From contig JAVTVX010000013.1 in assembly GCA_033439265.1 (NCBI GenBank), forward strand, positions 21,742,500-21,806,499: 64,000 bases of DNA. Direction: 5' to 3'. The stretch comes from Dillenia suffruticosa. Taxonomy: Eukaryota > Streptophyta > Magnoliopsida > Dilleniales > Dilleniaceae. This document shows positions 9,178 to 62,125 of this stretch, in pieces. A model generated the notes under the pieces. The model was given only the letters and a program-made list of their open reading frames with translations. It had not been told where the DNA came from and ran no database searches. The position numbers and the translations under genes are program-made. Positions within the stretch are counted from its first letter, which is position 1; each line of letters begins with the position of its first letter.

Positions 9178-9204
9178 TGTTGAAGATGATAATAGGTTGA
9201 TCAA

Positions 9205-28010: not shown

Positions 28011-30530
28011 GGATGCTTTTTTATCAGCTTCTCAATTCTAATTATTTTCCATATGATGAGAGAGAGAGAGTTTTACAAAGGGGGGATTAACCTAGAATTG
28101 AAAAATGCACATCTCTTTTCATCCCAACAAAAGAGAGGACCTGCTTTCTTCGTCCCAACAAAGATCATACTCAATGGTCTAAGCAGGATCTCTAGAGAGA
28201 GGACCTACTTTCAAAAGACAGGATTTAACTTTACAATGGCTTCGGAGGCAGAATTCCTTGTGGATTTGGGGTGATCGGGGGAAGGGGGTGGCCTTGGACC
28301 TCAGGGTTAAAACTTACCATAAATTCCATTATATTTCTTGATAACATTCACTCGCACCTTGTGTAAATTATGAAGCAGGATTTCTCTAGAGAGGACCTGC
28401 TTTCAAAGGATCGGATTTAATTTTGCAATGGTTTCAAAGGCAGAATTCATTATGGATTTAAAGTGAAGACGAGGGGCAAGTGTGGCCCGATCCCCCAAAG
28501 CTAGATCTTTCAACAGAAAAAGGGAAAATAATCTCAGGAAGAAATCTGTTGATCTGCTTAAAATAAAAAAATATAAAATAAAAAATAAAAATCACTTCAT
28601 ATGCAGCCATATAAGCTAAATGTGATGGACATTAGCAACAAATCAAAAGGATGAAATCTACAGCAACTTTCCATACGATCAAAGAAATATCAGACCGCAG
28701 ATCATAGATAATCAATTCAAGGACCACATAAAAAGTCCCCCACAATTCCCATCTGGTATGACCTCAAAAGCAAAAGCACAATATGAAGCATAGAAAGTCT
28801 TACCATTTCGGGCAGAATTGACAATACACTGAGCTTCTTGTTCTACAGCTAACAACTGTTGAATTCCACCTTGAGCCCTGTTTGATGCCATTTTTCCTGA
28901 AACTGTCGCACAAGAATCAGATAAGCAAAGTTCATAGCACAAGGATTTGACCAAAGTCATATAGAAAAAAGGCTTCCAAACACCATACAGTGGACAACAA
29001 CTAGACAATCTCAACATCTGTGAGCAGATCAAGTTTAATGGTCCCTGCTGGCATCCTTCCTGTCAAGATCTGTGAGAGATCATATCACTTGCATAACAGC
29101 CAGGGAAGAAGATAGAAATGGTTATGCTGTCAAGAGTTTGGACAAGTTAAAGAATGGTATGATGGAACAAAAAGCTTGGACAATAAAGTGATATCTAAGC
29201 TGATTCCACCCACGAGAAACTGCATTGAGGGGACTTCTACTGGATTCTTTAGATCATTTATCAAAACAAAAAATAAGTATTACCATGAAAAAAATTTACA
29301 CCGACCATACAACACATTTAAGGGACTTCTGCTAGATTTTAAGTTTTCAGGACAAACTAAGACAGAATAGTTGGGCCATGGGCGGGTTCAAGATGGATAA
29401 CATAGAAGAAAATAAATCCAGTCAAGACTGGGGTAGCTTAATCCAAAATTCATCAATATTGAGCATTGCTGATGTGATGTCAGTCCACCTAGGGAAACCC
29501 CTAACCACTTAACCTATTTAACATGGTTTCTTCACTTTGCCCAGCCGCACTCCTGTCGACTGACTGCACATATGGAAACCGTTATTGGGGGTGGATGCTT
29601 GTTTTAGTAGATAGTTTTTTTTTTTTTTTTTTTTTGTCAAATGAAACGCATGTTTTTCCATCCAACTTGTATATGCACCTAACACCAGTACCTAAGTCCA
29701 TGATCCAGGACTTTAGTAGTTTAAATTGTTCCTCCCGATTGTTACCAAGAACACAACACTATATCTAAATTGATTTTGGTTAGTCCATATTATATAACAT
29801 AAATCTAAAGGCTCCAAAATTTCTACTGCAAGATCATCCAACTTTGCATAATTAAAGTACAAATTATTCACATAACTAAACGCACAATTCAATTTCAGTT
29901 CAATACTACAAAATTGGGGCCAAAAATCTCTGGACACAGTAAACCCCAGCCGATTCAAACCAGCGAACGCATGCAAACGATTTATCGAATTCAACAAAAA
30001 ATGACTATTTCATGAGAAAATTACAATGTAATGCCCAACAAAAAAAAATATTGGATAATCTTTAGTCGAACATCGAATAAAGCTCATATTCACCGTATGA
30101 AACACATTAGCATCGATCCACGGATTACCGAATTCCGAAATTCCCATGATGCTTACAAATCAAGGACATAAAAGCCATAAAAATGAGGAGTCCAGCCGAT
30201 CGCGATCGTCAAGTTGATTTATAATAGAAAAAAACGGGAGAGAAAAATAAAGGGTGAGAGATTTTAGGGCTTACAGGAAGATACCAGAAGCGGAGGAGTC
30301 GGCGGTGAACTGAGAGAGAAACGGACCTTCTGATCTCGATCAATTTCACCGAAGAGTGACAGGCGAGAGCGAGACGGACATGTCGGTTAAAAATATGCTC
30401 TCTCCCCCCAATGGTACAGATGCAAACAAAAGGGTTTCCTAGTCTAACTTCTTGGGGATGGTGGGCCACGCCAATCGGCCCAACCCGCGAAGCCCAATTT
30501 GTGAATAAATAAAATAGTAAGTTTTTGAAG
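28011..30530 (-). pseudogene. Truncated V-ATPase subunit G gene, 5' half, inverted copy
   Basis: Promoter, 5' UTR, 5' UTR intron, first coding exon and the start of coding intron 1 are present, homologous to the intact gene at 52.7-55.0 kb. The coding exon is 28,891-28,804, beginning [14 protein letters not shown] and ending at an intact GT donor after VNSARN. Two residues differ from the intact gene. Similarity stops inside intron 1 (CATCC next to 28,011), and exons 2 and 3 are absent, so at most 29 codons plus read-through could be translated. The other truncated copy stops at the same point, so both derive from one truncation. The promoter region with two TGGGC[CT] motifs is retained, so transcription is possible. 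Confidence 0.88.
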
Positions 30531-31420
30531 GGTTTTATTTTAAAAATGATTTCGTAGGCGTTTGAATGATTTTGATTTTTGTTGATTTGTATTTATTTAT
30601 ATTTATTTATTTATAATAATTTATAAATAAAGTATAAGTTTTTTTTTTTTGGAAAAACATAAAATCCCGTAAGTTAAATCAATTTATTTATAAAGAAAAT
30701 AAATTTATCATTACATTAATAAATGGTTTTGGTAAAAAATTAAATAAATATTAGTATAGTTTACTTTAAACTTTTTAAATAGAATTTTTAACACGGGAGA
30801 CATGTCATAATTCAATTTTCAAGTGTCTGACATAAGTTCCTTTGGATGCTAAAATTCCCGGTCGCGTCATGAATATGACTAGAGTCAACTCTAAGGTTTC
30901 ACCTTGATCAAAATCATAAGGAGGAAAAAGAGAAGCCCCTAACAATTCTACCATTATAAACGTTTTATATCATATGTTGATAGAAAAGCTTTTATTAATT
31001 TAATAGCCACCACCTGTTTTATAACCTTGCAAAATTTTTAAATTTTTCTCTTGAAGAGAGAGACCAATAAACTATAATTGAACTAATATTGATGTACTTT
31101 CTTTTGTAAAAATCTCGAATTTGAGACTCATCGTGTAAAAAAAAAATCTAGAGAGGATGAGAGAGGGGCATACATCACATGATACCCAGAGGCCAATGGC
31201 TAGTCTATTAAAGAAAAGAATAGTTAGTGTTTTAGACAGTTTAGTGTCACATTCTTATTTTCAAATTCCGGAGTTTAAATCTCCTTATAACAAAAAATAA
31301 ATAAATAAATAGTCTATAAGGGGCATTGAATAAAGTGAAAGAAAAACATGAGAAGCTGTGTTGGAAAGTCTCTATTCGAAACCTTAATAAAAAGAATGGC
31401 GAGACACACGACACACGACA
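30531..31420. repeat. Shared spacer segment, copy 1 (direct)
   Basis: This segment matches 39,030-39,830 in the same orientation and 33,200-34,150 in reverse. Landmarks are GGGAGACATGTCATAATTCA, CACCTTGATCAAAATCAT and GGCCAATGGCTAGTCTATTA. It sits between the truncated V-ATPase G copy and the first microprotein gene. No open frame is conserved across the copies. Confidence 0.8.
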
Positions 31421-31520
31421 AAAATGAAACTATTACAGATTTAAATTGTCCAACAGTCTATATTCATAGCCTCCGGATCCCAACTGATGTCTTTTATTAG
31501 ATCTCTCTCTCCCCTGCCCC

Positions 31521-31527
31521 TATTTAA
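31521..31527 (+). promoter_or_regulatory. Candidate TATA box of microprotein gene A
   Basis: TATTTAA lies 210 bp upstream of the ATG, directly after a CT-rich stretch. The same box with its flanks stands at 41,140-41,146 before copy B. After the box the phrase CCCTATAGTCAATTATTTT is repeated in both copies. Confidence 0.5.
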
Positions 31528-31730
31528 AGACACCCTATAGTCAATTATTTTCTCTTTCCCTATAGTCAATTATTTTCATCTCAGCTCTCATTCAACCTCG
31601 TCTTAAAGGAAAAGAAACCCTTGTTGATATACAATTCTTCCTACATGCCCTCTCTCTGCCTTCTGAAGCAGGTTGAGAGGTTTATAATTAACACCAACCG
31701 CAATTTTTCTTTATTCGGGGGTACAATAAA

Positions 31731-31889
31731 ATGGCAAAAAAGATTAGAAATATGAAGCAGATGAGAAACTTGAATACATGGATGGCTGTTGCTCCAGCAC
31801 CAATTATTTACCCCTACAAGACATCAAACTCTCCTGGTTTTGAGACCATCACCGAAGACCCAGATGAGGAGTATGATGGAGATTCATAA
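31731..31889 (+). CDS. Acidic-tailed microprotein, copy A (52 aa)
   Basis: A 52-codon frame is intact from ATG to TAA. It has a basic N-terminus (MAKKIRNMKQMR), a central W..VAPAPIIYP.K motif, SNSP, then an acidic end (TEDPDEEYDGDS). It lacks a signal peptide or membrane segment. Copy B at 41,383 is the same length with seven replacements or fewer, and the diverged paralogue at 42,621 keeps the centre and tail, so selection on the protein is plausible. The leader, TATA box and 3' flank are duplicated too, so this is not a processed copy. It lies in the middle of the duplicated block, beside truncated genes, yet is itself unbroken. I do not recognise a named family and assign no function. Confidence 0.65.
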   Translation: MAKKIRNMKQMRNLNTWMAVAPAPIIYPYKTSNSPGFETITEDPDEEYDGDS

Positions 31890-32009
31890 ATCCATAACTC
31901 CGCACTGCTATCCCGCATTTGGATTGCACATGTAGCAGAGGAGATTTTGTAAATTACTAGTGCTTCTACCCCAATTTAAATACATTTTGTACTTTTGTCT
32001 GCACCCTCA

Positions 32010-33060
32010 TTATTTAGTGACGAGGTGGAGTTCGAAAGAAATGTAAGCCATTCACATTAGAACACAATCCCATGGATTAAAAAGATGAGAAGGCTCAAGC
32101 AGAATGGACTTTTTGCTATTTGCATACATAAAATCTTGGAAATCATTTTAATGGACTTCCAAGAAGAACTATATGCAGTTACAAATAATTTCCACCAGAG
32201 AGTCCAATCTAATTCCTATGAAACTTGTAGAAATGTATGCCATTCACAATGGAGCATATCACCAGGATAAAGCTCAAACAACAAGAATGGACTGTTTTTT
32301 CTTTGCACAGATAAAATCCTGAATATCATTTTAAGGGACTTTCAAGAAGAACTATGTGCAGCGAATGATAAAAGAAAAAAATGCAGACAAGTAAACTAGT
32401 ATAAGATCCCAAAATGGAACAATTCTCATTAATTTGCAATTCTATAGACAATACAGAAATAGAATCTAATTCCAATAACTAAATTATTGAGTCAGAATTA
32501 CCTTCTCAATCTATATGATCAAGACCCAACTACAATCAATCTCTGAATCCAATTACACCCGTCAGAAACTTTAAGGAGCTAAAGACTTTGGATACCCCAT
32601 TCAACCAACACCGCCCTGCACATCAAAACAGCCCAATTTTAAAATTTTGTAAAGAGCCTCGGAAGATACTGTTACAAGGAGGCCGATGCAGTCATTGAAG
32701 GCCTCCTTGGCGATGTCTTCTTCTCTGATTTTCCTCGGAGAGAGACCGAGAGGTCCGATTTTGATTGCCAGTGAACTTGCGCCTCCGACTTAAGCTACGA
32801 TTCTGGGTACAGATCAAATTTTTGGTCGCATTGTTATATACAAATAGAGAGAGGTGAATGCGGAGAGGGTCCTAGGGTTTCGGGGATGGAGAAATGAGAT
32901 AGGGTTTCGATGGGATGGGTATTTAGGTAATTGTAGTTTAATATCGTTAAACCTAATCTACTTTATTTTTTTGATTTATAACAATTTTTATTATAAAGTA
33001 TATAATTTTATAAGTAAAAATCAAACTCTTTTTTTTTTTTTTAAGTTTTAAACTATGACA
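32010..33060. repeat. RPL12-bearing segment, inverted copy
   Basis: This is the reverse complement of 40,030-40,845, including flanking GACGAGGTGGAGTTCGAAAG (matching near 40,830-40,850). An open frame of 61 codons at 32,085-32,270 has its twin at 40,598-40,783 because of this duplication. About 240 bp at 32,395-32,633 are present only in this copy. Confidence 0.8.
32650..32831 (-). pseudogene. 60S ribosomal protein L12 pseudogene fragment, left copy
   Basis: Read on the minus strand, the sequence starts ATG CGA CCA AAA at 32,831 and soon shifts frame. It then matches the N-terminal half of plant RPL12: [29 protein letters not shown] and GLLVTV correspond to the family's [37 protein letters not shown]. 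Similarity ends after VTV. Upstream are a TATATAAC-like box and telo-box motifs (TAGGGTTT), as in ribosomal protein promoters, so the copy is genomic rather than processed. A single inserted base near the start and a premature end make it non-functional. Confidence 0.8.
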
Positions 33061-34150
33061 CCAAATTCCCTTATATTAAAATTTTTTAATATATGTAATT
33101 TAATTTTTTGGGGTGAGAAAAAAATCAAAAGTCACAATCGTGTCATAAGCTTTAAATAGCCGAGAAACTAGGGCAGGCGAAGGAGTAGCTCGGTGGACCT
33201 TAGCACAAGTGATTATTCATTTGGAGAATTCAATTTTTCGTTTTTTAAAAACAAAGTTCTTGATTGAGTAACAGCTTTTTACTAAGGATTCGAATTTAGA
33301 CTTTCCAACACAGCTTCTCATATTTCGCTTTCAATACCTCTTTTAGATCAATTATTTATTATTATTATTATTTTATTATAAGGAGGTTGGAACTCAAATC
33401 ACATGACTTGCCTCAAAGATACTAACTATTTATTTCTTTATTAAACTAGCCATTGGCCTTTGTGTATCGTGTGATGTATGCCCCTATCTCTCCATCTTTC
33501 TCTCTCTCTTCTTTTATTTTTTTAACCACATCGTTCGCTTCAAATTTGAAACTTTTATAAAAAGAGAAAGATCAGCGTTAATTGAATTATAGTTCATTGA
33601 TCTCTTTTCAAGAGAAAAATTTAAAGATTTTGTAAGGTTACAAAACAAGTGGTGGCTATTAAATTAAATAATTCTTTTCTATCAACCATATGGTGTAAAA
33701 TGTTTATAATAATAGAATTGCTTGGGGCGTCTCTTTTTCCTCCGTATGATTTTGATCAAGGTGAAACCTTAAAGTTGACTCCAATCATATTCATGACGGG
33801 ACCAGGAATCATAGCATCCAAAGGAACTTATGTCAAACATTTGAAAATTGAATTATGACATGTCTCCCTTATTAAAAATTCTATTTAAAAAGTTAAAAGT
33901 AGACTATATTAATATTTATATAATTTTTTACCAAAACCGATTATTAATCTAAAGATAAATTTATTTTCTTTATAAATAAATTGCTTTTATTTACAGAATT
34001 TTATGTTTTTGCAAAAAAAAAAAAGACACTTATACTTTATTTTTAAATTATTATAAATAAATAAATACAAATAAATACAAATCAATGAAAATCAAAATCA
34101 TTCAAGCGCGTGTGAAATCATTTTAAAAAAATAACTTTCAAATGCCATGA
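33061..34150. repeat. Shared spacer segment, copy 2 (inverted)
   Basis: This is the reverse complement of about 39,030-40,030 and of 30,531-31,420. Together with 32,010-33,060 it makes one inverted duplicate of 39,030-40,845. The stretch from 34,150 to 34,490 is plain AT-rich DNA. Confidence 0.8.
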
Positions 34151-34493
34151 TGAGATTCTACCTTAATTTTTGATATATTTTTTTAAAAAATAAAATATAT
34201 TGATTTATATCAAATATTTTTATGAGGTAATTCTAACTTCCTTTTAAAAACCTTATTGTCTTTGAAATAGTTAACTTAAATTTACACATAGTGCGCAAAA
34301 AAGGTCAAAATTAGTTAAGTAATTTTTGTAAAATTTATAATGGAGTTTAATTTTGAATAAAAAATTAAAATTTATTTATTATTAGTATCAAATTTTGTTA
34401 ATAATTATTAAGTATTATCCGGATATCAACAACACCACAAAATGTGTAATAACGTTTGAAGACTCCAAAATTTTCAAGTTAGATTCCATATAT

Positions 34494-35640
34494 CATAATA
34501 CTAAATTTCTGCTAAATCTTATCATATTATTAAAAATAGAATTATCATAATGATCAATAATTTTAATTGTTAAAAAAATATCTTGATAAAACACACTTTA
34601 TCGGAAAGAATTTATTATTAACTCCAAATTAGAAATTAATTATACTTTTAATCCTCTAAATTAATATTTAAAAAAATATATTTTTAAGTCATTTTTAATA
34701 TAAAATTATTAAGTTGTTATTCCATAATTGATATTTTTAGCTATATTCATATAAAATTTAAAATTTTAATTGTTTTCTATAATGGCTTTTTTATTATTAT
34801 GTTTAATTTAAGTGCGAATTGTATTTTTATTATTATAATTATATTTAAATATGAATTGTATTTTTATTACTATAATTATATTATTCTTAATTTTCCTATT
34901 GCGTATCGTAACCTCTCTCTATTTTCTCTGTCTTTTTCGTTTCTCTCCACTACTCTGTTTTAAATCCTATCCCTCTGTACTCTCTCCCCCCAATCTTCTC
35001 CCCTCTCCATCTCTCTCCAGCATTGCCATGATATTTCATACTTTAATTCTTTTCTCTTCCCCTCTGACGAACGATTTTAAATCTTTGGTTAGGGTTACAA
35101 TTTGGGCCGATTTCTCATTGATCGTTTGGTTTCTGTGTTTTTTGTTTTTCTTTCTATCTTTCACGAAATCTTTGTTAGGGTTTTGACGGAAGGGCTGGTC
35201 ACGAATTCTTGTTTCTATTCTTTAATTTTTGAGTTTCTTGATTTATTTTTTAACATTCTTGACTTTTCTTTTTTGGGGGTGTGGATGTGGTTCGACTAAG
35301 ATTTCAAAATAAACAAGTGGAATGTTTGGTTATTGAATAGAAAAAATGAATTCAATGAAGAAAAAATTCTGAGACTAAGAAAAGATTCGATGAAAAAAAG
35401 CGTGAAATATCTCGCTCTTTCCCCATCTTCTCCTCCTCTCTTTGTGTCTCTCTATCATCGTTGTGATATTTCATAATTCAATTCTTTTCTCTATCCTTCT
35501 AGTGAATGATTTTAAACTATTTATTGGGGTTACAATTCCAGTTAGTTTGTTATTCATTCATTTGGTTTCTGTATTTTTTTGTTCTTTTTTCTAACTCTCG
35601 CAAAATCTTTCTTGATTAAAGTCTTGACAGAAGGGGATAA
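34494..35640 (+). repeat. Half copy of the palindrome arm
   Basis: This segment is collinear with the right palindrome arm from its centre (26,622) to about 27,870. It begins exactly at the symmetry point (ATAATACTAAATTTCTGC against ATAATGCTAAGTTTCTGCC) and runs through the CT-rich zone and both GTTAGGGTTTTGACGGAAGG-type blocks. It ends where a V-ATPase G intron fragment starts. The coincidence suggests the palindrome centre is a true element end. Confidence 0.8.
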
Positions 35641-36168
35641 AAAGAGAGGACCTGCTTTCTTCGTCCCAACAAAGATCCTAGTCAACAATCTAAGCAGGAT
35701 CTCTAGAGAGAGGACCTGATTTCAAAAGATAGGATTTAACTTTACAATGGCTTCAGAGGCAGAATTCCTTGTGGATTTGGGGTGATTGGGGGAAGGGGTG
35801 GCCTTGGACCTCAGGGTTAAAACTTATCATAAATTCCATTATATTTCTTGATAACATTCACTCGCACCTTGTGTAATTTATGAAGCAGGATTTCTAGAGA
35901 GAGGACCTGCTTTCAAAGGATCGGATTTAATTTGCAATGGTTTCAAAGGCAGAATTCATTATGGATTTAAAGACAAGAGGAGGGGCAAGTGTGGCCTGAT
36001 CCCCCAAAGTTAGAACTTTCAACAGAAAAAGGGAAAATAATTCAGGAAGAAATCTGTTGATCTGCTAAAAATTAAAAAAAAAAAAAATCACTTCATATGC
36101 AGCCATATAAGCTAAATGTGATGGACAGTAGCAACAAATCAAAAGGATGAGATCTACAGCAACTTTCC
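35641..36168 (-). pseudogene. V-ATPase subunit G intron 1 fragment, inverted
   Basis: These 530 bp match 28,120-28,676 in the same orientation: coding intron 1 of the subunit G gene, reading leftward. There is no exon. The right end stops at ...CAACTTTCCAT and is joined to the promoter side of another copy, interrupted by the SINE. Confidence 0.75.
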
Positions 36169-36179
36169 ATATTACTTTT

Positions 36180-36375
36180 TTTTTTTTCCTGGATTTGATC
36201 CATTATCGAGTATCCGGAGTTTTGTTTCGAATAATTTTGGTCAAGCTGCTGTCGGGTCCTAATCAGGAGGGAGCTCTCCTAACGTCGTTTTTATTACTAT
36301 TAAGAGTCAAACTCCGATTCTTAATATGAGGTGTTAGTGTCTTTCTCGTTAAACAAACGAAGAGTCGGTACTTTT
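36180..36375 (-). mobile_element. tRNA-derived SINE at a duplication junction
   Basis: A direct repeat, CATATTACTTTT (to within one base at the left edge), lies at 36,168-36,179 and 36,376-36,387. The T run is the tail of a leftward element. The core GTCGGGTCCTAATCAGGAG is identical to the SINE at 448-644. The intact gene has the unfilled site near 52,664-52,680, so this insertion is younger than, or specific to, this copy. Confidence 0.75.
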
Positions 36376-36387
36376 CATATTACTTTT

Positions 36388-38897
36388 GATATTTTCAAAA
36401 ACTTACTATTTTATTTATACACAAATTGGGCTTCGCGGGTTGGGCCAATTGGCGTAGCCCACCACCCACAAGAAGTTAGACTAGGAAACCCTTTTGTTTG
36501 CATCTGTATTATTGGGGGGAGAGAGGCTATTTTTAACAGACGTGTCCGTTTCGCTCTCGCCTGTCACTCTTCGGTGAATTTGCTCGAGATCAGTAGGTCC
36601 GTTTCTCTCTCTGTTCACCTCCGACTCCTCCGCTTCTGGTATCTTCCTGTAAGCCCTAAAATCTCTCACCCTTTATTTTTCTCTCCCGTTTTTTCTCTAT
36701 TATAAATCAACTGGACGATCGCGATTGGCTGGACTCCTCATTTTTATGACATTTAAGTCCTTGATTTGTAAGCATCATGGGAATTTCGGAATTCGGTAAT
36801 CCGTGGATCGATGTTAATGTGTTTCATACGGTGAATATGAGCTTTATTCGATGTTCGACTAAAGTTTATCCAATATATTTTTTTTTGTTGGGCATTATAT
36901 TGTAATTTTCTCATGAAATAGTCTTTTTTTGTTGAATTCGATAAATCGTTTGCATGCGTTTGCTGGTTTGAATCGGCTAGGGTTTACTGTGTCCAGAGAT
37001 TTTTGGCCCCAATTTTGTAGTATTGAACTGAAATTGAATTGTGCATTTAGTTATGTGAATAATTTGTACTTTAATTATGCAAAGTTGGATGATCTTGCAG
37101 TAGAAATTTTGGAGCCTTTAGATTTATGTTATATACTATGGACTAACCAAAATCAATTTAGATATAGTGTTGTGTCCTTGGTAACAATTGGGAGGAACAA
37201 CTACTAAAGTCCTGGCTCATGGACTTAGGTACTGGTGTGAGGTGCATATACAAGTTGGATGGAAAAACATGCGTTTCATTTGAAAAAAAAAAAACAAGCT
37301 ATCTGCTAAAACAAGCATCCACCCCCAATAACAGTTTCCATATGTGCAGTCAGTCGACAGGAGTGCGGCTGGGCAAAGTGAAGAAACCATGTTAAATAGG
37401 TTAAGTGGTTAGGGGTTTCCCTTGGTGGACTGACATCACATCAGCAATGCTCAATATTGATGAATTTTGGATTTAGCTACCCCAGTCTTGACTGGATTTA
37501 TTTTCTTCTATGTTATCCATCTTGAACCCGCTTATGGCCCAACTATTCTGTCTTAGTTTGTCCTGAAAACTTAAAATCCAGCAGAAGTTCCTTAAATGTG
37601 TTCTATGGTCGGTGTAAATTTTTTTCATGGTAATACTTATTTTTTGTTTTGATAAATGATCTAAAGAATCCAGTAGAAGTCCCCTCAATGCAGTTTCTCG
37701 TGGGTCGAATCAGCTTAGATATCACTACATTGTCCAAGCTTTTCGTTCCATCATACCATTCTTTAACTTGTCCAAACTCTTGACAGCATAACCATTTCTA
37801 TCTTCTTCCCTGGCTGTTATGCAAGTGATATGATCTCTCACAGATCTTAACAGGAAGGATGCCAGCAGGGACCATTAAACTTGATCTGCTCACAGATGTT
37901 GAGATTGTCTAGTTGTTGTCCACTGTATGGTGTTTGGAAGCCTTTTTTCTATATGACTTTGGTCAAATCCTTGTGCTGTGAACTTTACTTATCTGATTCT
38001 TGTGCGACATTTTCAGGAAAAATGGCATCAAACAGGGCTCAAGGTGGAATTCAACAGTTGTTAGCTGCAGAACAAGAAGCTCAGTGTCTTGTGAATGCTG
38101 CCCGAAATGGTAAGACTTTTTATGCTTCATATTGTCCTTTTGCTTTTGAGGTCATATCAGATGGGAATTGTGGGGGACTTTTTATGTGGTCCTTGCATTG
38201 TACTATCTATGATCTGCGGTCTGATATTTCTTTGATCGTATGGAAAGTTGCTGTAGATTTCATCCTTTTGATTTGTTGCTACTGTCCATCACATTTAGCT
38301 TATATTGCTGCATATGAAGTGATTTATTTTTATTTTTATTTTTATTTTAAGCAGATCAACAGATTTCTTCCTGAGATTATTTTCCCCTTTTCTGTTGAAA
38401 GATCTCGCTTTGGGGGATCAGGCCACACTTGCCCCTCCTCTTGTCTTTAAATCCATAATGAATTCTGCCTTTGAAACCATTGCAAAATTAAATCCGATCC
38501 TTTGAAAGCAGGTCCTCTCTCTAGAAATCCTGCTTCATAAATTACACAAGGTGCGAGTGAATGTTATCAAGAAATATAATGGAATTTATGGTAAGTTTTA
38601 ACCCTGAGGTCCAAGGCCACCCCCTTCCCCCGATCACCCCAAATCCACAAGGAATTCTGCCTCTGAAGCCATTGTAAAGTTAAATCCTGTCTTTTGAAAG
38701 CAGGTCCTCTCTCTAGAGATCCTGCTTAGACCGTTGAGTATGATCTTTGTTGGGACGAAGAAAGCAGGTCCTCTCTTTTGTTGGGATGAAAAGAGGGTGC
38801 ATTTTTCAATTATAGGTTAATCCCACCTTTGTAAAACTCTCTCTCTCATCATATGGAAAATAATTAGAATTGAGAAGCTGATAAAAAAGCATCCAAA
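36388..38897 (+). pseudogene. Truncated V-ATPase subunit G gene, 5' half, direct copy
   Basis: This copy has the same content as the inverted copy at 28,011-30,530: promoter with TGGGCT/TGGGCC motifs, 5' UTR, UTR intron, first coding exon (38,022-38,109; [14 protein letters not shown], ending VNAARN) and the start of intron 1. Similarity to the intact gene stops at 38,897 within GCATCC. The downstream exons are missing. It carries about 150 bp in intron 1 (38,604-38,755) that the intact gene lacks. An open frame of 189 codons here is exon plus intron read-through and is not a gene product I would predict. Confidence 0.88.
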
Positions 38898-40029
38898 GAA
38901 AAGTCAAGAATGTTAGAAAACAGATCAACAAACTCAAAAATCAAAAAACAGAAATAACGTAAAACTGATCCTTTACAAGAGAAGAAACGAACCATCAAAT
39001 TATTGGAAGCTTCTCTTGATGAAATGGATCTTTTTTGGCAAAAACATAAAATCCCATAAGTAAAATCAATTTATTTATAAAGAAAATAAATTTATCATTA
39101 GATTAATAAATGGTTTTGGAAAAAAATTAAATAAATATTAATATAGTTTACTTTTAACTTAATAGAATTTTTAACAAGGGAGACATGTCATAATTCAATT
39201 TTCAAGTGTGTAACATAAGTTCCTTTGGACGCTACAATTCCCGATCCCGTCGTGAATATGATTGGAGTCAAATTTAAGGTTTCACCTTGATCAAAATCAT
39301 ATGGAGGAAAAAGAAAAGCCTCTAGCAATTCTACTATTATAAACGTTTTATATCATATGGTTGATGGAACAACTTTTATTAATTTAATAGCCACAGCCTG
39401 TTTTGTAACCCTGCAAAATCTTTAATTATTTCTCTTGAAGAGAGAGACCAATAGGTTATAATTTAATTGACATTGATCTTTTTCGCTTTGTAAAAGTTTT
39501 AAGTTTAAGACTTAATATATAAAAAAAGAAAAGAAAAGAAAAAAACAAGAGAGGAAGAGAGAGGGGCATACATCACATGATACCCAAAGGCCAATGGCTA
39601 GTCTATTAAAGAAATAAATAGTTAGTGTCTCCGGCCGGGCAATCTAGTGATCACGTTCTCCTTCTTCAATCCCGTAATTTAAGTTCAAATCTCTTTATAA
39701 CAAAACAAACAATTATAATAAATAATTGGTCTATAAGGGGCATTGAATAAAGTGAAAGCAAAACAAGAAAAGCTGTGTGGGTAAGTCTAGATTCGAATCC
39801 TTAATAAAAAGCAACTGTGCTACTTAGTAAAGAACTTTGATTTTAAGAACCAAAAAATTGGATTCTCCAAACGAATAATCACCTATGCTAAGGTCCACCG
39901 AGCCTACTCTTATGCCTGCCCTAGTTCGGCTATTTAAAGCTTGTGACATGACTGTGGCTATTGATTTTTTCTCGACCCAAAAAATTAAATTACATATATT
40001 AAAAAATTTTAATATAAGGGAATTTAATG
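38898..40029. repeat. Palindrome-arm fragment and spacer segment, copy 3
   Basis: About 130 bp (38,898-39,030) match the inner end of the palindrome arms (25,345-25,480) and are followed without a gap by the spacer segment shared with 30,531-31,420 and, inverted, 33,061-34,150. The junction sits inside a T run. Confidence 0.75.
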
Positions 40030-40845
40030 TAATAATTTAAATCTTTTTCTGAAAAAAAAGAGTTTGATTTTTATTTATAAAATTATATACTTTATAATAA
40101 AAATTGTTATAAATAAAAAAAAAGTAAATGGGTTTAACGATATTAAACTTTACCACTATTACCTAAATACCCCTCCCATCGAAACCCTATCTCATTTTTC
40201 CATCCCCAAAACCCTAGTGCCCTCTCTGCACCCCCTCCTACTTGTATATAACAGTGCGACCAAAATTCGACCTGTACCCAGAATTGTACCTTAAGTTGGT
40301 GGCGCAAGTTCACTGGCAATCAAAATCAGACCTCTCGGTCTCTCTCCGAGGAAAATCAGAGAAGAAGACATCGCCAAGGAGGCCTTCAATGACTGCATCG
40401 GCCTACTTGTAACGGTATCTTCTGAGACTCTCTACAAAATTTTAAAATTGGGTTGTTCCTCGTAACAGTAGTTTACTAGTCTGCATTTATTTTCTTTTAT
40501 CATTCGCCGCACATAGTTCTTCTTGAAAGTCCCTTAAAATGATTTTCAGGATTTTATCTGTGCAAAGAAAAAACAGTCCATTCTTGTTGTTTGAGCTTTA
40601 TCCTGGTGATATGCTCCATTGTGAATGGCATACATTTCTACAAGTTTCATAGTAATTAGATTGGACTCTCTGGTGGAAATTATTTGTAACTGCATATAGT
40701 TCTTCTTGGAAGTCCATTAAAATGATTTCCAAGATTTTATGTATGCAAATAGCAAAAAGTCCATTCTGCTTGAGCCTTCTCATCTTTTAAATCCATGGGA
40801 TTGTGTTCTAATGTGAATGGCTTACATTTCTTTCGAACTCCACCT
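40030..40845. repeat. RPL12-bearing segment, direct copy
   Basis: The inverted partner is 32,010-33,060. It includes a ribosomal-protein-type promoter with AAACCCTA motifs at 40,182-40,189 and 40,208-40,215 and a TATATAA box near 40,244. Confidence 0.8.
40254..40420 (+). pseudogene. 60S ribosomal protein L12 pseudogene fragment, right copy
   Basis: The initiator codon is GTG at 40,254, followed by CGA CCA AAA TTC GAC (RPKFD, as in the family's PPKFD). After a frame shift near 40,295, [19 protein letters not shown] and [19 protein letters not shown] follow. Similarity ends at about 40,417. Compared with the left copy the invariant Gly of KIGPLG has become Arg. It is non-functional. Confidence 0.82.
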
Positions 40846-41139
40846 CGTCCCTCTTCCTTCATAAGTACTTTGTTGTTCCCTTTGGATGGTTTTCCCATTC
40901 TCTTAAATCATAGGGGCAAGCTGTGTCTCAACAATCTAAAGTCTGTAACAGTTTCATTTTTGTCTTGTGTCTCTGTTTTTTATACCACTACTCCCATATA
41001 CGATTTAAATTGAAGGTTTTGCCCAAATTTTGGTTCTTGATTTATCACCACGGCCGCTAAATCTATTTTGGAGACGGACAATTCATGGCCTCTGGATCCC
41101 AACTGATGTCTTTTATTAGATCTCTCTCTCCCCTGCCCC

Positions 41140-41146
41140 TATTTAA
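41140..41146 (+). promoter_or_regulatory. Candidate TATA box of microprotein gene B
   Basis: TATTTAA lies 243 bp upstream of the ATG. The duplicated phrase CCCTATAGTCAATTATTTT follows twice, at about 41,152 and 41,210, with a (CT) insertion between the two that copy A lacks. Confidence 0.5.
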
Positions 41147-41382
41147 AGACACCCTATAGTCAATTATTTTCTCTCTCCCTCTTCTCTCTCTCTCTCTTTA
41201 AAGAAGACCCCCTATAGTCAATTATTTTCATCTCAGCTCTCATTCAACCTCGTCTTAAAGGAAAAGAAACCCTTGTTGATATACAATTCTTCCTACATGC
41301 CCTCTCTCTGCTTTCTGAAGGGGGTGGAGAGGTACATAATTAACACCAACCGCAAATTTTCTTTATTCGGGGTTAAAATAAA

Positions 41383-41541
41383 ATGGCAAAAGAGATTAGA
41401 AATGTGAAGCAGATGAGAAACTGGAATACATGGATGGCTGTTGCTCCAGCACCTATTATTTACCCCTACAAGGTATCAAATTCTCCTGGTCTTGATACTA
41501 TTACCGAAGACCCAGATGAGGAATATGATGGAGATTCATAA
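41383..41541 (+). CDS. Acidic-tailed microprotein, copy B (52 aa)
   Basis: This 52-codon frame is a close copy of gene A, with MAKEIRNVKQMR, W..VAPAPIIYP.K, SNSPGLDTI and the tail TEDPDEEYDGDS. Replacements relative to A are few and mostly conservative (K/E, M/V, L/W, T/V, F/L, E/D). There is no signal peptide, and the tail is strongly acidic. Leader and 3' flank also match A, up to the CTTTTGTCTGC phrase near 41,648. It lies 1.2 kb before the diverged paralogue C in the same orientation, so B and C look like an old tandem pair and A like a later copy. Function unknown to me. Confidence 0.68.
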   Translation: MAKEIRNVKQMRNWNTWMAVAPAPIIYPYKVSNSPGLDTITEDPDEEYDGDS

Positions 41542-42159
41542 ATCCATAAACTCTGCACTGCAATCCTGGATTTGGATTGTACATGTAGCAGAGGAGATTT
41601 TGTAAATGACTAGTGCTTCTACCCCAGTGTAAATACGTTTTGTACTTTTGTCTGCCCCTTTATTTTTTTGGGTGGTTATAATTTGTAAAAATATCATCAT
41701 AAAATGGTCTGAACTGAATTGCTCCCATCTTTTATTATTATTTTAATTCTTATTTATGCTTTCTCTCTCGATTTCATGTAGTAACAAAATTAGGAACATA
41801 TATCAACCCAAAAGCAGAAAAGGATTAAAGGCAGAGAAGTTGAATTTAAATTTCAAAAACAAAATCCCAAAGATTTTGCGTCCCTTAACCCTGTTTTATT
41901 GACACCCCATGTTTAGTCTCTCCTTAATAAAGATGTTTCAACCAATATGTAGGTTGTAGTTATTGCTGACAGAACTTGAAAATTTTAAGAAATTTTTTAA
42001 TAGAAATTTAGATTTTGATAGTATAGGAGCTATGCATTGATGATCTATTATAGGAAACGGATGTTTAAATCTTGTAATAGAACAAAATGAGGAAATTGAT
42101 ATTAAGAGGCATATGTTCCTACTCTTCGCACTCAATATACAGCATTTTCCTCAATATAC

Positions 42160-42215
42160 AGCACAGCCTTTGCACAGGCGACCCGGGTTCGATCTCAGAC
42201 GACGGTAACTTTCAT
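42160..42215 (+). other. tRNA-derived fragment
   Basis: AGCCTTTGCACAGGC resembles an anticodon arm with TGC, and GGGTTCGATCTC a T-arm or box B. The 5' half of a tRNA is missing, so this is probably a tRNA pseudogene piece or SINE remnant, not a working tRNA. Confidence 0.3.
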
Positions 42216-42477
42216 TTTGTTTCTCTACAATTTTAAAATCGCTACTGAAATAAACGGTTTTGGCTATTTTGGTCAAAACCAGTGACCATAGTAAGCACGT
42301 GGCGCACGCGTGTCGTGGGTTCTTGAAACCAAAACCACGAATCAGTCTTTTGTAGACTTCCATGAGGACTTGTGCGTCCTTCCCCTCTGCTGCCACATGG
42401 TTTCCTTGTTCATGCGAAGAAACACACCGTACCATTTTTCAACACATACACGACGTCCTCCCCCACCAACTATCCCT

Positions 42478-42497
42478 CCCCCCCCCCCCCCCCCCCC
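42478..42497 (+). repeat. Poly(C) run of 20
   Basis: An uninterrupted C run lies about 125 bp upstream of the ATG of microprotein gene C, within its likely promoter or leader. Confidence 0.85.
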
Positions 42498-42620
42498 ACA
42501 AAGAAAAAAAGTGAAAATAGCCAAACACTCCTCTAATTTCTTCCAAATTTGACCCTATTCTTCAAATTCTGTCTCATGCTTTCTCGCACAAAAACCTCCT
42601 CAACGTTTCACAATATAGTT

Positions 42621-42755
42621 ATGGAACTGAAGAATTTGATTCCTTGGACTGAGGTTGCTCCAGCACCCATAATTTTCCCTTCTAAGCCCTCTCATTCTCC
42701 TCCACTAGAGACTATCTCCGAGGAGTCCGATGAGGAATGCCATGGTGACTCATAA
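42621..42755 (+). CDS. Acidic-tailed microprotein, paralogue C (44 aa)
   Basis: The 44-codon frame begins MELKNL and has W.EVAPAPIIFPSK, SHSPPLETI, then SEESDEECHGDS. Relative to A and B it lacks eight N-terminal residues but keeps W, VAPAPII, P.K.S.SP, TI.E, DEE and the terminal GDS. An in-frame upstream ATG at 42,549 exists, but the alignment favours 42,621. A CT-rich tract follows the stop. Conservation concentrated in the protein-coding part, while flanks have diverged, is the best evidence in this window that the family is translated. I do not recognise a named domain. Confidence 0.65.
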   Translation: MELKNLIPWTEVAPAPIIFPSKPSHSPPLETISEESDEECHGDS

Positions 42756-47808: not shown

Positions 47809-47839
47809 GTAAGTTCTCAAAGTCTTTTAACAGAAAGTC

Positions 47840-50045
<2,206 letters not shown>

Positions 50046-52899: not shown

Positions 52900-54271
52900 G
52901 TAAGCCCTAAAATCTCTCACCCTTCATTTTTCTCTCCCGTTTTTTCTCTATTATAAATCAAATGGACGATCGCGATTGGCTGGACTCCTCATTTTTATGA
53001 CATTTATGTCCTTGATTTGTAAGCATCATGTGGAATTTCGGAATTCGGTAATCTGTGGATCGATGTTAATGTGTTACATACGGTGAATATTAGCTTTATT
53101 CGATGTCCGACTAAAGATTATCGAATAATTTTTTTTTTCGGCATTACATTGTAATTTTCACATGATATAGTTGTTTTTTGTTGAATTCGATAGCAGAAAA
53201 TCGTTTGCTGGTTTGAATCGGCTAGGGTTTACTGTGTCCAGAGATTTTTGGCCCCAATTTTGTTGTATTGAACTGAAATTGAATTGTGCATTTAGTTATG
53301 TGAATAATTTGTCCTTTAATTACGCGAAGTTGGATGATCTTGCAGTAGAAATTTTGGAGCCTTTAGATTTATGTTATATATTTTGGACTAACCAAAATCA
53401 ATTTAGATATAGTGTTGTGTCCTTGGTTACAATTGGGAGGAACAATTTAAACTACTAAAGTCCTGGATCATGGACTTAGGTACTGGTGTTAGGTGCATAT
53501 ACATGTTGGATGGAAAAACATGCGTTTCATTTGGGGAAAAAAAAAAGCTATCTGCTAAAAACAAATATCCAGCCCTAATAACAGTATCCATATGTGCAGT
53601 CAGTCAGACAGGAGTGTGGACGGCTGGGCAAAGTGAAGAATCCATGTTATATAGGTTAAGTGGTTAGGGTTTCCCTTGGTGGACTGACATCACATTAGCA
53701 ATGCTCAATATTGATGAATTTTGGATTATGCTGCCGCAGTCTTGACTGGATTTATTTTCTTCTATTTTATCCATCTTGAACCTGCCCATGGCCCAACTAT
53801 TCTGTCTTAGTTTGTCCTGAAAACTTAAAATCCAGTAGATGTCACTTAAATATGTTCTATGGACAGTGTAAATTTTTTTCATGGTAATACATATTTTTTG
53901 TTTTGATAAATGAACTAAAGAATCCAGTAGAAGTCCCCTCAATGCAGTTTCTCCGTGGGTGGAGTCAGCTTAGATATCACTGCATTGTCCAAACTTTTTG
54001 TTCCAACATACCATTCTTTAACTTGTCCAAACTCTTGAGAGCATAACCATTTCTATCTTCTTCCCTGGCTGTAATCCAAGTGATATGATCTCTCACAGAT
54101 GTTGACGGGAAGGATGCCAGCAGGGACCATTAAACTTGATCTTCTCACAGATTTTGAGATTGTCATGTTCTTGTCCACTGGATAGTGTTTGGAAGCCTTT
54201 TTTCTATATGACTTTGGTCAAATCCTTGTGCTATGAACTTTACTTATCTGATTCTTGTGCAACAGTTTCAG
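52900..54271 (+). other. 5' UTR intron of the subunit G gene
   Basis: The donor is at CTTCCT|GTAAGC (52,900) and the acceptor at TTTCAG|GAAAAATGG (54,271), six bases before the ATG. The intron is preserved in both truncated copies. It contains an open frame of about 95 codons (53,171-53,458) that stays open in all three. Confidence 0.75.
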
Positions 54272-54276
54272 GAAAA

Positions 54277-55818
54277 ATGGCATCAAACAGGGCTCAAGGT
54301 GGAATTCAACAGTTGCTAGCTGCAGAACAAGAAGCTCAGTGTATTGTCAATGCTGCCCGAAATGGTAAGACTTTCTATGCTTCATATTGTCCTTTTGCTT
54401 TTGAGGTCATATCAGATGGGAATTGTGGGGGACTTTTTATGTGGTCCTTGCATTGTATTATCTATGATCTGCGGTCTGATATTTCTTTGATCGTTTGGAA
54501 AGTTGCTGTAGATTTCATCCTTTTGATTTGTTGCTACTGTCCATCACATTTATCTTATATGGCCGCATATGAAGTGATTTTTTTTTTTTTTTTTTTTAAA
54601 TTTTTAGCAGATCAACAGATTTCTTCCTGAGATTATTTTCCCTTTTTCTGTTGAAAGTTCTAGCTTTGGGGGATCAGGCCACACTTGACCCTCCTCTTGT
54701 CTTTAAATCCATAATGAATTCTGCCTTTGAAACCATTGCCAAAATTAAATCTGATCCTTTGAAAGCAGGTCCTCTCTCTAGAAATCTTGCTTCATAAATT
54801 ACACAAGGTTCAAGTGAATGTTATCAAGAAATATAATGGAATTTATGGTAAGTTTTAACCTTGAGTAGGATCTTTGTTGGGACGAAGAAAGCAGGTCCTC
54901 TCTTTTGTTGGGATGAAAAGAGATATGTATTTTTCAATTATAGGTTAATCCCACCTTTGTAAAACTCTCTCTCTCTCATCATATGGGAAATAATTAGAAT
55001 TGAGAAGCTGATCAAAAAGCATCCATGGCGCATATGTTTATGGTGGTTTCAACTTGTCATGCTTGAGAAAAAGTTGAACTGGATCAGATGTAATTGAGAG
55101 AGCTCTGTTTTTAAAAGAACTTCCGTTTTATCTTCTTTGTATCTGCCACATGTGCAGAGATGCAACTTACTGTTGATTGATCTAATTCGTAAAATGCAAT
55201 CTCAATTGCCAGGTGTTGTTATACCTCACTTGGCCTCTTAAATTGGTAATGCTCTTGAAATGTGATGTCTCAACTGCTTCCATGTTCTTGTGTTTAGAGA
55301 AAATGAACAGGTTGAAGCAAGCTAAAGAGGAGGCAGATAAGGAGGTTGCAGAATTTCGGGCGCAAATGGAGATGGAGTTTCAAAGGAAAGTTGCAGAGGT
55401 AGTTACACTACTCAAAACCTCTGTTTGCTTTTCTGTGTTTAAATAGTAAATGACGAACTATTCCGGTTCAGACTTTTTATGTATTTCATTTTGGGGCTTG
55501 TTTGTTCAGAGTCCAGTCCTCATTTTCCTTAAGATTTTCATAACCTCATTGCAACATTAGAACTTTGGGAAGCACTTGAGTTTCCTTCAAAAACTTTAGC
55601 TTCTCATCTAACTTCTGTAGACTTGTACTTTTTGTCCATTTATTACTAAATTGCCCTTCTACTGTGGTCAACAGAGTAGTGGAGATTCTGGTGCTAATGT
55701 GAAGCGGCTCGAGCATGAGACGGAGGGCAAGATCCAGCACCTGAAATTGGAGGCTTCAAGAATATCTCACGATGTTGCCCACATGCTCCTGAAGCACGTG
55801 ACAAGCGTGAGATACTAA
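54277..55818 (+). CDS. VHA-G: V-type proton ATPase subunit G, intact gene
   Basis: Coding exons 54,277-54,364, 55,298-55,398 and 55,675-55,818 join at GT-AG sites into 110 residues, the length of plant VHA-G. Subunit G forms the peripheral stalk with subunit E and holds the V1 sector against V0 in the proton pump of vacuolar and endomembranes. The N-terminal [14 protein letters not shown], the charged helix [36 protein letters not shown] and the C-terminal LLKHVTSV are diagnostic. The protein is soluble and almost wholly helical. Position 22 is Cys where I recall a basic residue in other plants. The promoter carries site II motifs and there is a long 5' UTR intron. Its 5' half is duplicated at 28.0-30.5 and 36.4-38.9 kb. 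Poly(A) signals (AATAAA) occur near 56,018. Confidence 0.97.
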
Positions 55819-59655: not shown

Positions 59656-59829
59656 ATGGCGACACCCACGTTCCATCCTCATCAGCATTCAGCTCAGCAG
59701 CAGAAACAACAGATCCCCAACTTGAGCTTCACAGACCACAACGCCACCACCACCAGAAAGGCTTTATCTTTCTCATCACTCATGACACTTTTGACTCAAA
59801 CTAAACAAACCAATAAAAATTCACACTAA
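59656..59829 (+). CDS. Upstream ORF (57 aa) in the receptor kinase leader
   Basis: An ATG at 59,656 opens 57 codons, and its TAA ends at 59,829, one base before the kinase ATG at 59,831. The peptide is His/Gln/Thr-rich (MATPTFHPHQHSAQQQ). If the transcript starts upstream it would act as a uORF and could lower kinase translation. The transcription start is unknown, and I do not recognise the peptide. Confidence 0.35.
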   Translation: MATPTFHPHQHSAQQQKQQIPNLSFTDHNATTTRKALSFSSLMTLLTQTKQTNKNSH

Positions 59830-59830
59830 A

Positions 59831-62125
59831 ATGTCATCCGGGTATCTTCGATTACCACTTTTTTTGCTTTTAATTCACTTAATTTTGAATTTGGCATCTG
59901 GTTTTGGATCAATGGGTCCGATTTCTGCTGCATTTGGGAAAAATGGGTTTTTCTGTGCTATTGATGCGAGTGGGAGACAGGAGGTGATTTGTTGGGGTAA
60001 GAACAATTCTATGTCTAGCACTAATGCTGCATTATTTGGTGATATTCCTGCAATGTTTGCTCTCACCGGCGGTGATGGATTTATGTGTGGCATTTTAGCA
60101 AACACTTCGACTGTGTATTGCTGGGATTTGCTTGGATCAAATAATGAGGTTCTTGTTCCTGATATTTATAGAAACACAGCTTACTCACATGTGGCTGCTG
60201 GTAAAAGCCATGTTTGTGCTATTAGAGGGTCTTATTTTTTGGAAAATGATTGGGGTACTATTGATTGTTGGGAAATTGTTAGAAGATCTAATAGTAGTTT
60301 GAGTTCTCTAGCAAGTAGTTCATATTACGATGAGTCTATTACTAATCTTGCGTTCAGAAAGGTCGTCTCTGGTGATGGTTTTAGTTGTGGTGGTGTTAAA
60401 GACAGGGGTTTAGTTTGTTGGGGTCCTGAGGCTACTATTTTGGGAGTTTCAGGTGCATCTGAAGATTTTGTGAGTTTGGCTTCAGGTATGGAATCTGTTT
60501 GTGGAATTTCTGGGGCTTCTGGTGAGGTTAAGTGTTGGGGTGAGAACCAATCATTCATCGGGAGTCCAGTTGGAAACCGGTTTGTGTCTTTGGCTGCGGG
60601 TGCTGAGCATTTTTGTGGGATCCGAGAGGATAACCATGGGATTGAGTGTTGGGGGCATTTTAATACTTCTGCCGTTCCGAAGGGTTCTGGGTTTATGGCA
60701 ATTGCTTCCTCTGATGTTACTACTTGTGGTATTAGGGAAGATGACTTGGTGCTAGACTGTTGGTTTGTCAATGTGATGTCAACACCTGATTATGATCCTC
60801 CGTTGCAGCTGTGCAGTCCAGGTCTATGTACCTCGAGCTCCTGTGCAGAAGGGAAGTATGCCTTCAATGCAAGCACTCTTAGCGAGACAGATTTGACAAG
60901 TTTGTGTGTGAGGAAAGATTTGAAAATTTGTTCTCCTTGTGGTTCTAATTGTTCTGAAGGATTCTTCCTGTCTAGTCCATGTAGTGAGAATGCTGATAGG
61001 GTGTGCACAGCTTGCTCTCTTTGCCAAAATAGCTCATGTTGGGATGTTTGTCAGCTTCAATCAACACCTGTGAGCCATAAAAGGCATGAGCTAGAGTTGC
61101 AAAGATTTGTTCTCATTGTTGGTTCCTTAGCCTTAGGTTTGTTATTGCTGCTAATTAGCCGGTATCTTCTTCCATGTATGATAAGTAGAAGAAAGGAGGA
61201 AGGAACGAAAAAATCATTTGCTTCATGCATTGGGAAAGTGGAGTCTGAGAGGGACATAAATGCTGATCCACTTCCTCCTCTGTCAGTGACCCCATGTATT
61301 GGGACAGCCCAAGTTTTTCGACTGTCAGAACTGAAGGATGCAACTAATGGTTTCAAGGAGTTCAATGAGCTTGGGAGGGGAAGCTATGGCTTTGTTTACA
61401 AGGCTGTCCTTGCAGATGGGCGGCAGGTTGCTGTTAAGAGAGCAAATGCAGCCACCATAATCCACACCAATAGCCGGGACTTTGAAATGGAGCTGGAAGT
61501 CCTTTGCAACCTCAGGCATGGCAATATTGTAAACTTATTGGGATACTGCTCAGAGATGGGGGAAAGGTTGCTTGTTTACGAGTATATGCCCCATGGAACA
61601 CTTCATGACCACCTTCACAGTGGGCTTTCTCCACTGAATTGGAGCCTGAGGTTGAAGATCGCAATGCAGGCTGCAAAGGGGCTTGAGTTTCTTCACAAGG
61701 AACAAGTGCCACCTCTTGTCCACAGGGATGTTAAAACTTCTAACATTCTGTTGGACTCTGATTGGGGGGCGAGGATTGCAGATTTTGGACTTCTTTGTCC
61801 AAATGAGAGAGAACTAAGTGGAGGCATAAGGACAGATGTTTACAGTTTTGGGATTGTATTGCTGGAGATTTTAAGTGGAAGAAAGGCTTATGACAGGGAT
61901 TACACACCTCCAAGCATAGTTGAGTGGGCAGTGCCACTAATTAGACATGGAAAGGCAGCTGCAACCATAGATCGAAATGTGGCTCTTCCAAAAAATGTTG
62001 AACCCCTTCTTAAACTTGCAGATATTGCAGAGCTTACTCTGAGGGAAAATCCAAGTGAGCATCCTAGTATGTTGGATGTGGCTACTTGGTTGGAGCAAAT
62101 TTTGAAAGAAGGGCTCATATTATAG
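59831..62125 (+). CDS. CRINKLY4-related receptor-like kinase (CCR1/CCR2-like)
   Basis: An intronless 764-codon gene. Residues 1-24 are a signal peptide. Seven crinkly (RCC1-like) repeats at 36-312 each hold a C[GA]I...CWG-type pair. A Cys-rich TNFR-like region spans 328-407, followed by a membrane segment at 426-447 and a kinase domain at about 505-757. In the kinase, the glycine loop is GRGSYG (515-520), with Lys536, Glu554, HRDVKTSN (631-638) and DFG (651-653). Between DFG and DVYSFG (669) only 15 residues remain: the activation loop with the GT.GY.DPEY segment is missing. From memory, Arabidopsis CRINKLY4-related proteins CRR1 and CRR2 have a comparable deletion, so this is probably their orthologue and a weak or dead kinase that acts as a signalling partner at the plasma membrane. 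The ligand is unknown. A uORF precedes the gene. Confidence 0.93.
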   Translation: MSSGYLRLPLFLLLIHLILNLASGFGSMGPISAAFGKNGFFCAIDASGRQEVICWGKNNSMSSTNAALFGDIPAMFALTGGDGFMCGILANTSTVYCWDLLGSNNEVLVPDIYRNTAYSHVAAGKSHVCAIRGSYFLENDWGTIDCWEIVRRSNSSLSSLASSSYYDESITNLAFRKVVSGDGFSCGGVKDRGLVCWGPEATILGVSGASEDFVSLASGMESVCGISGASGEVKCWGENQSFIGSPVGNRFVSLAAGAEHFCGIREDNHGIECWGHFNTSAVPKGSGFMAIASSDVTTCGIREDDLVLDCWFVNVMSTPDYDPPLQLCSPGLCTSSSCAEGKYAFNASTLSETDLTSLCVRKDLKICSPCGSNCSEGFFLSSPCSENADRVCTACSLCQNSSCWDVCQLQSTPVSHKRHELELQRFVLIVGSLALGLLLLLISRYLLPCMISRRKEEGTKKSFASCIGKVESERDINADPLPPLSVTPCIGTAQVFRLSELKDATNGFKEFNELGRGSYGFVYKAVLADGRQVAVKRANAATIIHTNSRDFEMELEVLCNLRHGNIVNLLGYCSEMGERLLVYEYMPHGTLHDHLHSGLSPLNWSLRLKIAMQAAKGLEFLHKEQVPPLVHRDVKTSNILLDSDWGARIADFGLLCPNERELSGGIRTDVYSFGIVLLEILSGRKAYDRDYTPPSIVEWAVPLIRHGKAAATIDRNVALPKNVEPLLKLADIAELTLRENPSEHPSMLDVATWLEQILKEGLIL

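Follow-up and report, generated by a model that had tools for sequence, protein, structure and literature searches.

Short proteins with a putative PP2A-B56 docking motif form a gene family in Dillenia suffruticosa

Three short open reading frames (ORFs), named here A, B and C, lie within a stretch of 64,000 nucleotides from Dillenia suffruticosa (assembly GCA_033439265.1, contig JAVTVX010000013.1, positions 21,742,500 to 21,806,499 of the forward strand; hereafter the window). As judged from their sequences, they belong to a family of microproteins which probably serve as small docking adaptors or competitors of protein phosphatase 2A with a B56 (B') subunit (PP2A-B'), some of them membrane-anchored. 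ORFs of 52, 52 and 44 codons were found where the original prediction had placed them (Table 1) and the motif said to be shared by them, W..VAPAPII[FY]P.K.S.SP.[LF][ED]TI.E..DEE..GDS, was recovered, with 24 invariant columns in the A/B/C alignment; this sharing is far above chance. Within the window, tblastn tied C to A and B at an E-value of 4e-13 or better, and no further relative was found there with the three queries, the next-best match having an E-value of 0.1. It had also been proposed that these proteins bind a partner through the tail. The analysis supports this idea and narrows it down, in that the tail contains a predicted PP2A-B56 docking motif through which binding may take place.

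The genome of the same plant (one species; 596 Mb in 37 contigs) was searched with members of the family. What had been described as a three-member family was found by these homology searches to have at least 18 members and one fragment across the genome, the count being a lower bound with only the best-scoring candidates evaluated. With B as query, 16 places were returned, namely 15 members and the fragment (L014, contig C15), which holds part of the motif and was left out of the counts, as were repeat or overlapping places (L017–L023 and L027–L053). A putatively membrane-anchored query and a class III query returned 18 places each, these being the identical 18 genes with A, B and C included. 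Four classes were distinguished: class I with four members (A, B, L002 on contig C10 and L004 on contig C35; 52 amino acids), class II with two (C and L006 on contig C35; 44 and 46 amino acids), class III with two (L015 and L016 on contig C10; 50 and 55 amino acids, soluble) and class IV with ten (five on contig C12 and five on contig C31; 70–83 amino acids, each hydrophobic over a stretch close to its C-terminus). In a maximum-likelihood tree every class was separated from the others by a branch, with firm support for class III (100/99) and weak support for class IV (64/81), and the C-terminal part of L008 was seen in the alignment to be unlike that of its relatives. The predicted expansion of the family is borne out, although it took place mostly outside the window (the arrays on contigs C12 and C31, the partners on contig C35 and the copies on contig C10), with only A versus B looking like a local gain. 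The basic start that had been described is not constant, with the class III proteins beginning MAKEVLNVEPW or MAKEVLNIKPW.

C would be 59 amino acids long if translation began further upstream, at the in-frame ATG of position 42576. L006, the paralogue of C, lacks an ATG at the equivalent position, which makes the start giving 44 residues the likelier one. No Pfam family was matched by A, B or C, and a PDB sequence search with the three gave one weak match each, judged not meaningful. Scans of viral and prokaryotic contigs with the A/B/C alignment gave 66 and 139 pattern-matching stretches, respectively, with no relatives among them, as expected for a plant gene.

The LxxIxE motif and the predicted B56 pocket

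Of the 44 alignment columns that 16 or more members fill, six showed no variation: A21, P22, S32, P35, I40 and E42. At column 37, 17 of the 18 members have L and copy A has F; at column 39, 17 have T and L006 has P. Together, L37, I40 and E42 form an LxxIxE motif. The consensus for binding to B'/B56 is [LMFI]xx[ILV]xE, and at positions 2, 7, 8 and 9 a residue that is acidic or phosphorylated is preferred, according to the sections of two papers used here (PMC5586252; PMC10970375). This consensus was found in all 18 members, and motif positions 2 (E or D) and 7 are acidic in each of them. All 18 also pass the counting rule for B56 binding peptides set out in a section of the first of these papers (D/E/S/T minus K/R at positions 2, 7, 8 and 9; PMC5586252). 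The stricter pattern P-x-[LF]xxIxE fits 18/18 members and occurs in 0.06–1.2% of shuffled copies.

In the structure of B56gamma with BubR1, as described in the part of the paper drawn upon here, the L, I and E of the motif each occupy a pocket of their own. Replacing any one of them, or H187 or R197 of B56, by alanine made binding undetectable (PMC4930772). The residues lining the pocket were taken from the same part of that paper, with B56gamma numbering. The plant genome gave 28 B56 matches, 14 of them long or N-terminal stretches, of which 13 span the pocket; the remaining one (L070) is without the pocket region and was excluded. S173, H187, Y190, R197, I227, S230 and H243 were identical in all 13 stretches, whereas the remaining positions were conservatively replaced or variable: R188 was kept in 12, and T184, E226, I231, A236 and K240 were kept in 11 each, with D180 replaced by E in all 13. 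By sequence comparison, then, the predicted pocket for the motif is kept in the B56 genes of the host.

Evolutionary constraint

Selection on the protein, which had been claimed from A, B and C alone, is supported and is of the purifying kind. Pooling of six duplicate pairs gave 46.8 silent and 95.2 replacement changes, with a ratio of nonsynonymous to synonymous substitution rates (dN/dS) of 0.53 and a binomial p of 0.0014 in a simple count test that ignores transition bias, and the single pairs ranged from 0.38 to 0.68. Within the window, B versus C gave a dN/dS of 0.17 at a dS of 1.6. A versus B, with 5 silent and 7 replacement changes, is weak evidence and says little on selection by itself, because the two are 88% identical across approximately 550 bp with both flanks included. 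The near-copy pair L009/L010 showed no silent and three replacement changes. The coding alignment was gap-free in five of the seven pairs (the others being L015/L016 with 11 gap positions and L008/L011 with 5), compared to 4–111 gap positions in flanking bins of 150 bp. Coding identity was above that of the flank bins in 7/7 pairs, sometimes barely, with values of 89% vs. 75–86% for B/L004, and of 84% vs. 83% upstream and 61% downstream for C/L006.

With regard to the motif itself, the chance that its three columns fall within the best eight was 0.004, for columns picked post hoc. A stronger case for constraint came from a comparison of codons in six class representatives (15 pairs). At columns 37, 40 and 42 the residues were identical and silent change was saturated (pS 1.16), with a pN of 0.04 resulting from four replacement steps, which can only be intermediates between synonymous codons; pN in the other shared columns was 0.41. 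Within the six pairs of duplicates, dN/dS was 0 at the three core codons (on 2 silent changes only), and 0.30 in columns 35–43 vs. 0.56 elsewhere.

Possible mode of action and alternatives

We infer that the genes are expressed and that LxxIxE, located in an acidic tail that may be flexible, would occupy the groove of B', with L or F and I entering two hydrophobic pockets and E the basic pocket. The acidic side chains at positions 2 and 7 of the motif would assist. The role of the soluble members would be either to link PP2A-B' with a second partner or to block the groove against other substrates. That partner may be held by the W-x-E-V-A-P block, which sits approximately 13–15 residues ahead of LxxIxE and has E19 in 15 of the 18 members. 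The ten C-terminally hydrophobic paralogues would bring PP2A-B' to a membrane. Each of these (class IV, 10/10) has one hydrophobic stretch near the C-terminus with a Kyte-Doolittle mean over 17 residues of 2.09–2.82, followed by 4–17 residues, compared to hydrophobicity peaks of 0.22–1.15 in the other eight members, and this suggests that they likely carry a membrane anchor. A low-confidence AlphaFold model of B (mean pLDDT 66) has a helix at residues 2–19 followed by coil, the latter with a pLDDT of approximately 60.

Several points weigh against the assignment of these proteins to PP2A-B'. LxxIxE is short and shuffled members pass the counting rule in 1–12% of cases, depending on the member; it was picked after the alignment had been inspected, and the 18 members share descent, so that they do not represent 18 independent gains. 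L016 barely passes the rule (score of 1, with 1 needed) and the F at position 1 of copy A is a weaker residue. Selection within single pairs is moderate and some flanks almost equal the coding sequence in identity, as in B/L004. It should also be noted that no match to the Tantalus domain, a known B56 binder discussed below, exceeded the Pfam cut-off in the genome or among the 18 members. Finally, LxxIxE does not explain why S32 and the A-P pair vary as little as the core of the motif. This last point could be accounted for if the conserved tail bound some other partner (a kinase, ligase or scaffold) and merely resembled LxxIxE. S32, P35, T39 and A21-P22 are kept as well as the core, LxxIxE alone needs none of them, and the SP ahead of the motif in 15/18 members is a possible kinase site. 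However, the variation among members obeys the B56 rules at positions 1, 2, 4, 6 and 7, and a reading of the tail as a D-box (RxxL) was rejected, as it fits only 2 of 18 members, those with R at column 34. A different partner is therefore regarded as unlikely, though it is the most serious of the alternatives to PP2A-B' docking.

Relation to known PP2A-B56 binding proteins

The consensus and charge rule of LxxIxE docking proteins such as BubR1 are shared by the microproteins. In the papers cited, however, the known dockers are larger regulators, whereas the microproteins consist of little beyond the motif. Another likeness is to the Tantalus domain (PF15386) of animal PRR14 and PRR14L and of Drosophila Tantalus, whose core, [L/F]ETIFE(E), resembles the LETIFEE of class III. 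This was the only Pfam family touched by the members (2/18, best E-value 0.0012, below the cut-off), and the top Tantalus match across the genome is one of the microproteins (E-value 2.07). Over residues 22–42, L016 scored 19.2 bits with the profile, the highest value among the proteins listed, where the curated cut-off requires 32.8, and membership of Tantalus was rejected on this basis. Unlike Tantalus, the microproteins have the W-x-E-V-A-P block, and ten of them have the probable anchor. The Tantalus domain of human PRR14 binds B56alpha via FETIFE(E), and binding is lost with mutants on either side, according to the section of the paper cited (PMC7272351). We read the likeness, which is one of sequence, as a common docking code and not as a sign of descent.

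The next matches to Tantalus in the genome (E-values 9.4 and 9.5) are two PADRE/DUF4228 (PF14009) proteins (Pfam E-value 1e-34), both of which terminate in KPLLETIFEE. Their tail, P-x-LETI[FS]EE, is as in the microproteins, but PADRE has an N-terminal domain which the microproteins are without, and membership of this family was rejected with none of the 18 matching the profile. A motif of soybean DUF4228 proteins is KSRVWKPSLETISEE (PMC8166234). The conserved C-terminal WRPXLXXIXE of PADRE was read as a D-box in an earlier study, with PP2A unnamed in the part of it considered here (PMC7272662). The same sequence agrees with the PP2A-B56 docking consensus. From an interaction analysis, Arabidopsis AT1G21010 may bind B' delta and AT1G29195 may bind PP2AA3, without being tied to the motif in the portion of the paper cited (PMC6942412). 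This link between PADRE and PP2A would be independent, indirect evidence that such a motif works together with plant B'.

Little is known of how PP2A-B' reaches its substrates in plants. In the section consulted of one review, its targets BRI1 and BZR1 do not appear among the proteins listed with LxxIxE, and the motif may instead sit on a scaffold protein (PMC10418862). If the microproteins do dock to PP2A-B', they would be well suited to act as scaffolds or inhibitors, consisting of hardly anything besides the motif and being apparently anchored in ten cases out of 18. The C-terminal motif of PADRE, a stress-induced family in which it is so far unexplained, would then be suggested to be a PP2A-B' dock. 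It is tentatively proposed, as something quite possible if rather less secure than the docking itself, that plants have dedicated soluble and anchored microproteins that set the location of PP2A-B' and access to its groove, and that the extended P-x-LETIxEE arose separately in Tantalus/PRR14, in PADRE and in this family. Hertz and coworkers reportedly listed 107 Arabidopsis LxxIxE proteins in 2016, and the microprotein family may be among them. Novelty was judged from Pfam and from text searches of the literature. In the latter, VAPAPII and its variants appeared in no paper, SPxLETI strings and EVAPAPL appeared only in unrelated work, and LETIxEE strings appeared only in the soybean DUF4228 work. 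A literature search gave no plant microprotein tied to PP2A and LxxIxE, the listed works on Arabidopsis PP2A microproteins having been judged by title.

Table 1. Coordinates of the microproteins, of the PADRE tails and of other features of the window (window positions unless a contig is given).
Feature	Position	Strand	Basis or remark
Microprotein A, 52 aa, class I	31731..31889	+	ORF, alignment and tblastn
A, W-M-A-V-A-P-A-P block, residues 17-24	31779..31802	+	A21-P22 invariant in 18/18
A, LxxIxE motif FETITE, residues 37-42	31839..31856	+	F at position 1 in this member alone
Microprotein B, 52 aa, class I	41383..41541	+	ORF, alignment and tblastn
B, W-M-A-V-A-P-A-P block, residues 17-24	41431..41454	+	alignment
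B, LxxIxE motif LDTITE, residues 37-42	41491..41508	+	alignment and binding rule
Microprotein C, 44 aa, class II	42621..42755	+	ORF, alignment and tblastn
C, W-T-E-V-A-P-A-P block, residues 9-16	42645..42668	+	alignment
C, LxxIxE motif LETISE, residues 29-34	42705..42722	+	alignment and binding rule
PADRE tail L054	C37:4293484-4293540	-	ends KKPLLETIFEEPVCSR
PADRE tail L055	C29:7477538-7477576	+	ends KKPLLETIFEEPVCSR
Upstream ORF at A, 36 codons	31645-31755		overlaps start of A
Upstream ORF at B, 36 codons	41297-41407		overlaps start of B
Imperfect inverted duplication	28113-40852		arms up to 918 nt, 97%
V-ATPase subunit G-like exon	28712-29062	-	by eye
V-ATPase subunit G-like exon	37851-38450	+	weak Pfam match below cut-off
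V-ATPase G first-exon copy	54106-54630		weak Pfam match below cut-off
Aquaporin (MIP) exons	47831-49223		second exon Pfam E 2e-34
Receptor-like kinase	59795-62125		776 stop-free codons
Senescence regulator (S40/DUF584 type)	8692-9222	-	Pfam E 3e-38

Genomic location and neighbouring genes

The partners of B and C on contig C35, L004 and L006, have kept their order, with a spacing between starts of 1.37 kb vs. 1.24 kb in the window. Over the part of it that was searched, the receptor kinase at the end of the window has a 91% match on contig C35, approximately 19 kb from L004/L006, and the members of a B56 gene pair lie approximately 0.56 and 0.58 Mb off, on contigs C13 and C35. Contigs C13 and C35 are likely duplicated segments, because the order of B and C, the kinase match and the B56 pair are shared, and the order of the arrays suggests that contigs C12 and C31 are likewise duplicated. 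Copy A adjoins a rearranged inverted duplication, and the stretch containing A has, with its flanks, one copy on contig C10 and fragments on contig C15.

If the copies had been carried along by a repeat or mobile element, with no protein selected, this large imperfect inverted duplication at 28–41 kb and the copying of the A stretch with its flanks would both be readily explained. Yet just seven DNA matches, a lower bound, were found in the genome, the order and spacing of B and C are kept near the kinase match on contig C35, dN/dS is below 1 and the frame is kept in most pairs, making such an origin highly improbable. Still less credible is it that the frames are conserved upstream ORFs (uORFs) controlling a longer downstream protein, a class which their size would suit, given that ten members have their own hydrophobic C-terminus and that none of the 18 loci has an ATG-started ORF of at least 100 codons, counting unspliced ORFs only, in the 1.38–1.50 kb downstream on the same strand (the longest has 79 codons, and that of L006, with 73, runs off the end of the stretch). 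A and B are themselves overlapped at their starts by a uORF; in L002 the same uORF stops ahead of the start and in L004 there is none, and a role for it was dropped on account of this absence.

A V-ATPase subunit G-like exon is present in both sides of the inverted duplication, with a further copy of the first exon elsewhere in the window. Other genes detected in the window include an aquaporin, a senescence regulator and the receptor-like kinase mentioned above, which has RCC1-type repeats and a TNFR-like region and which we take to be CRINKLY4-related.

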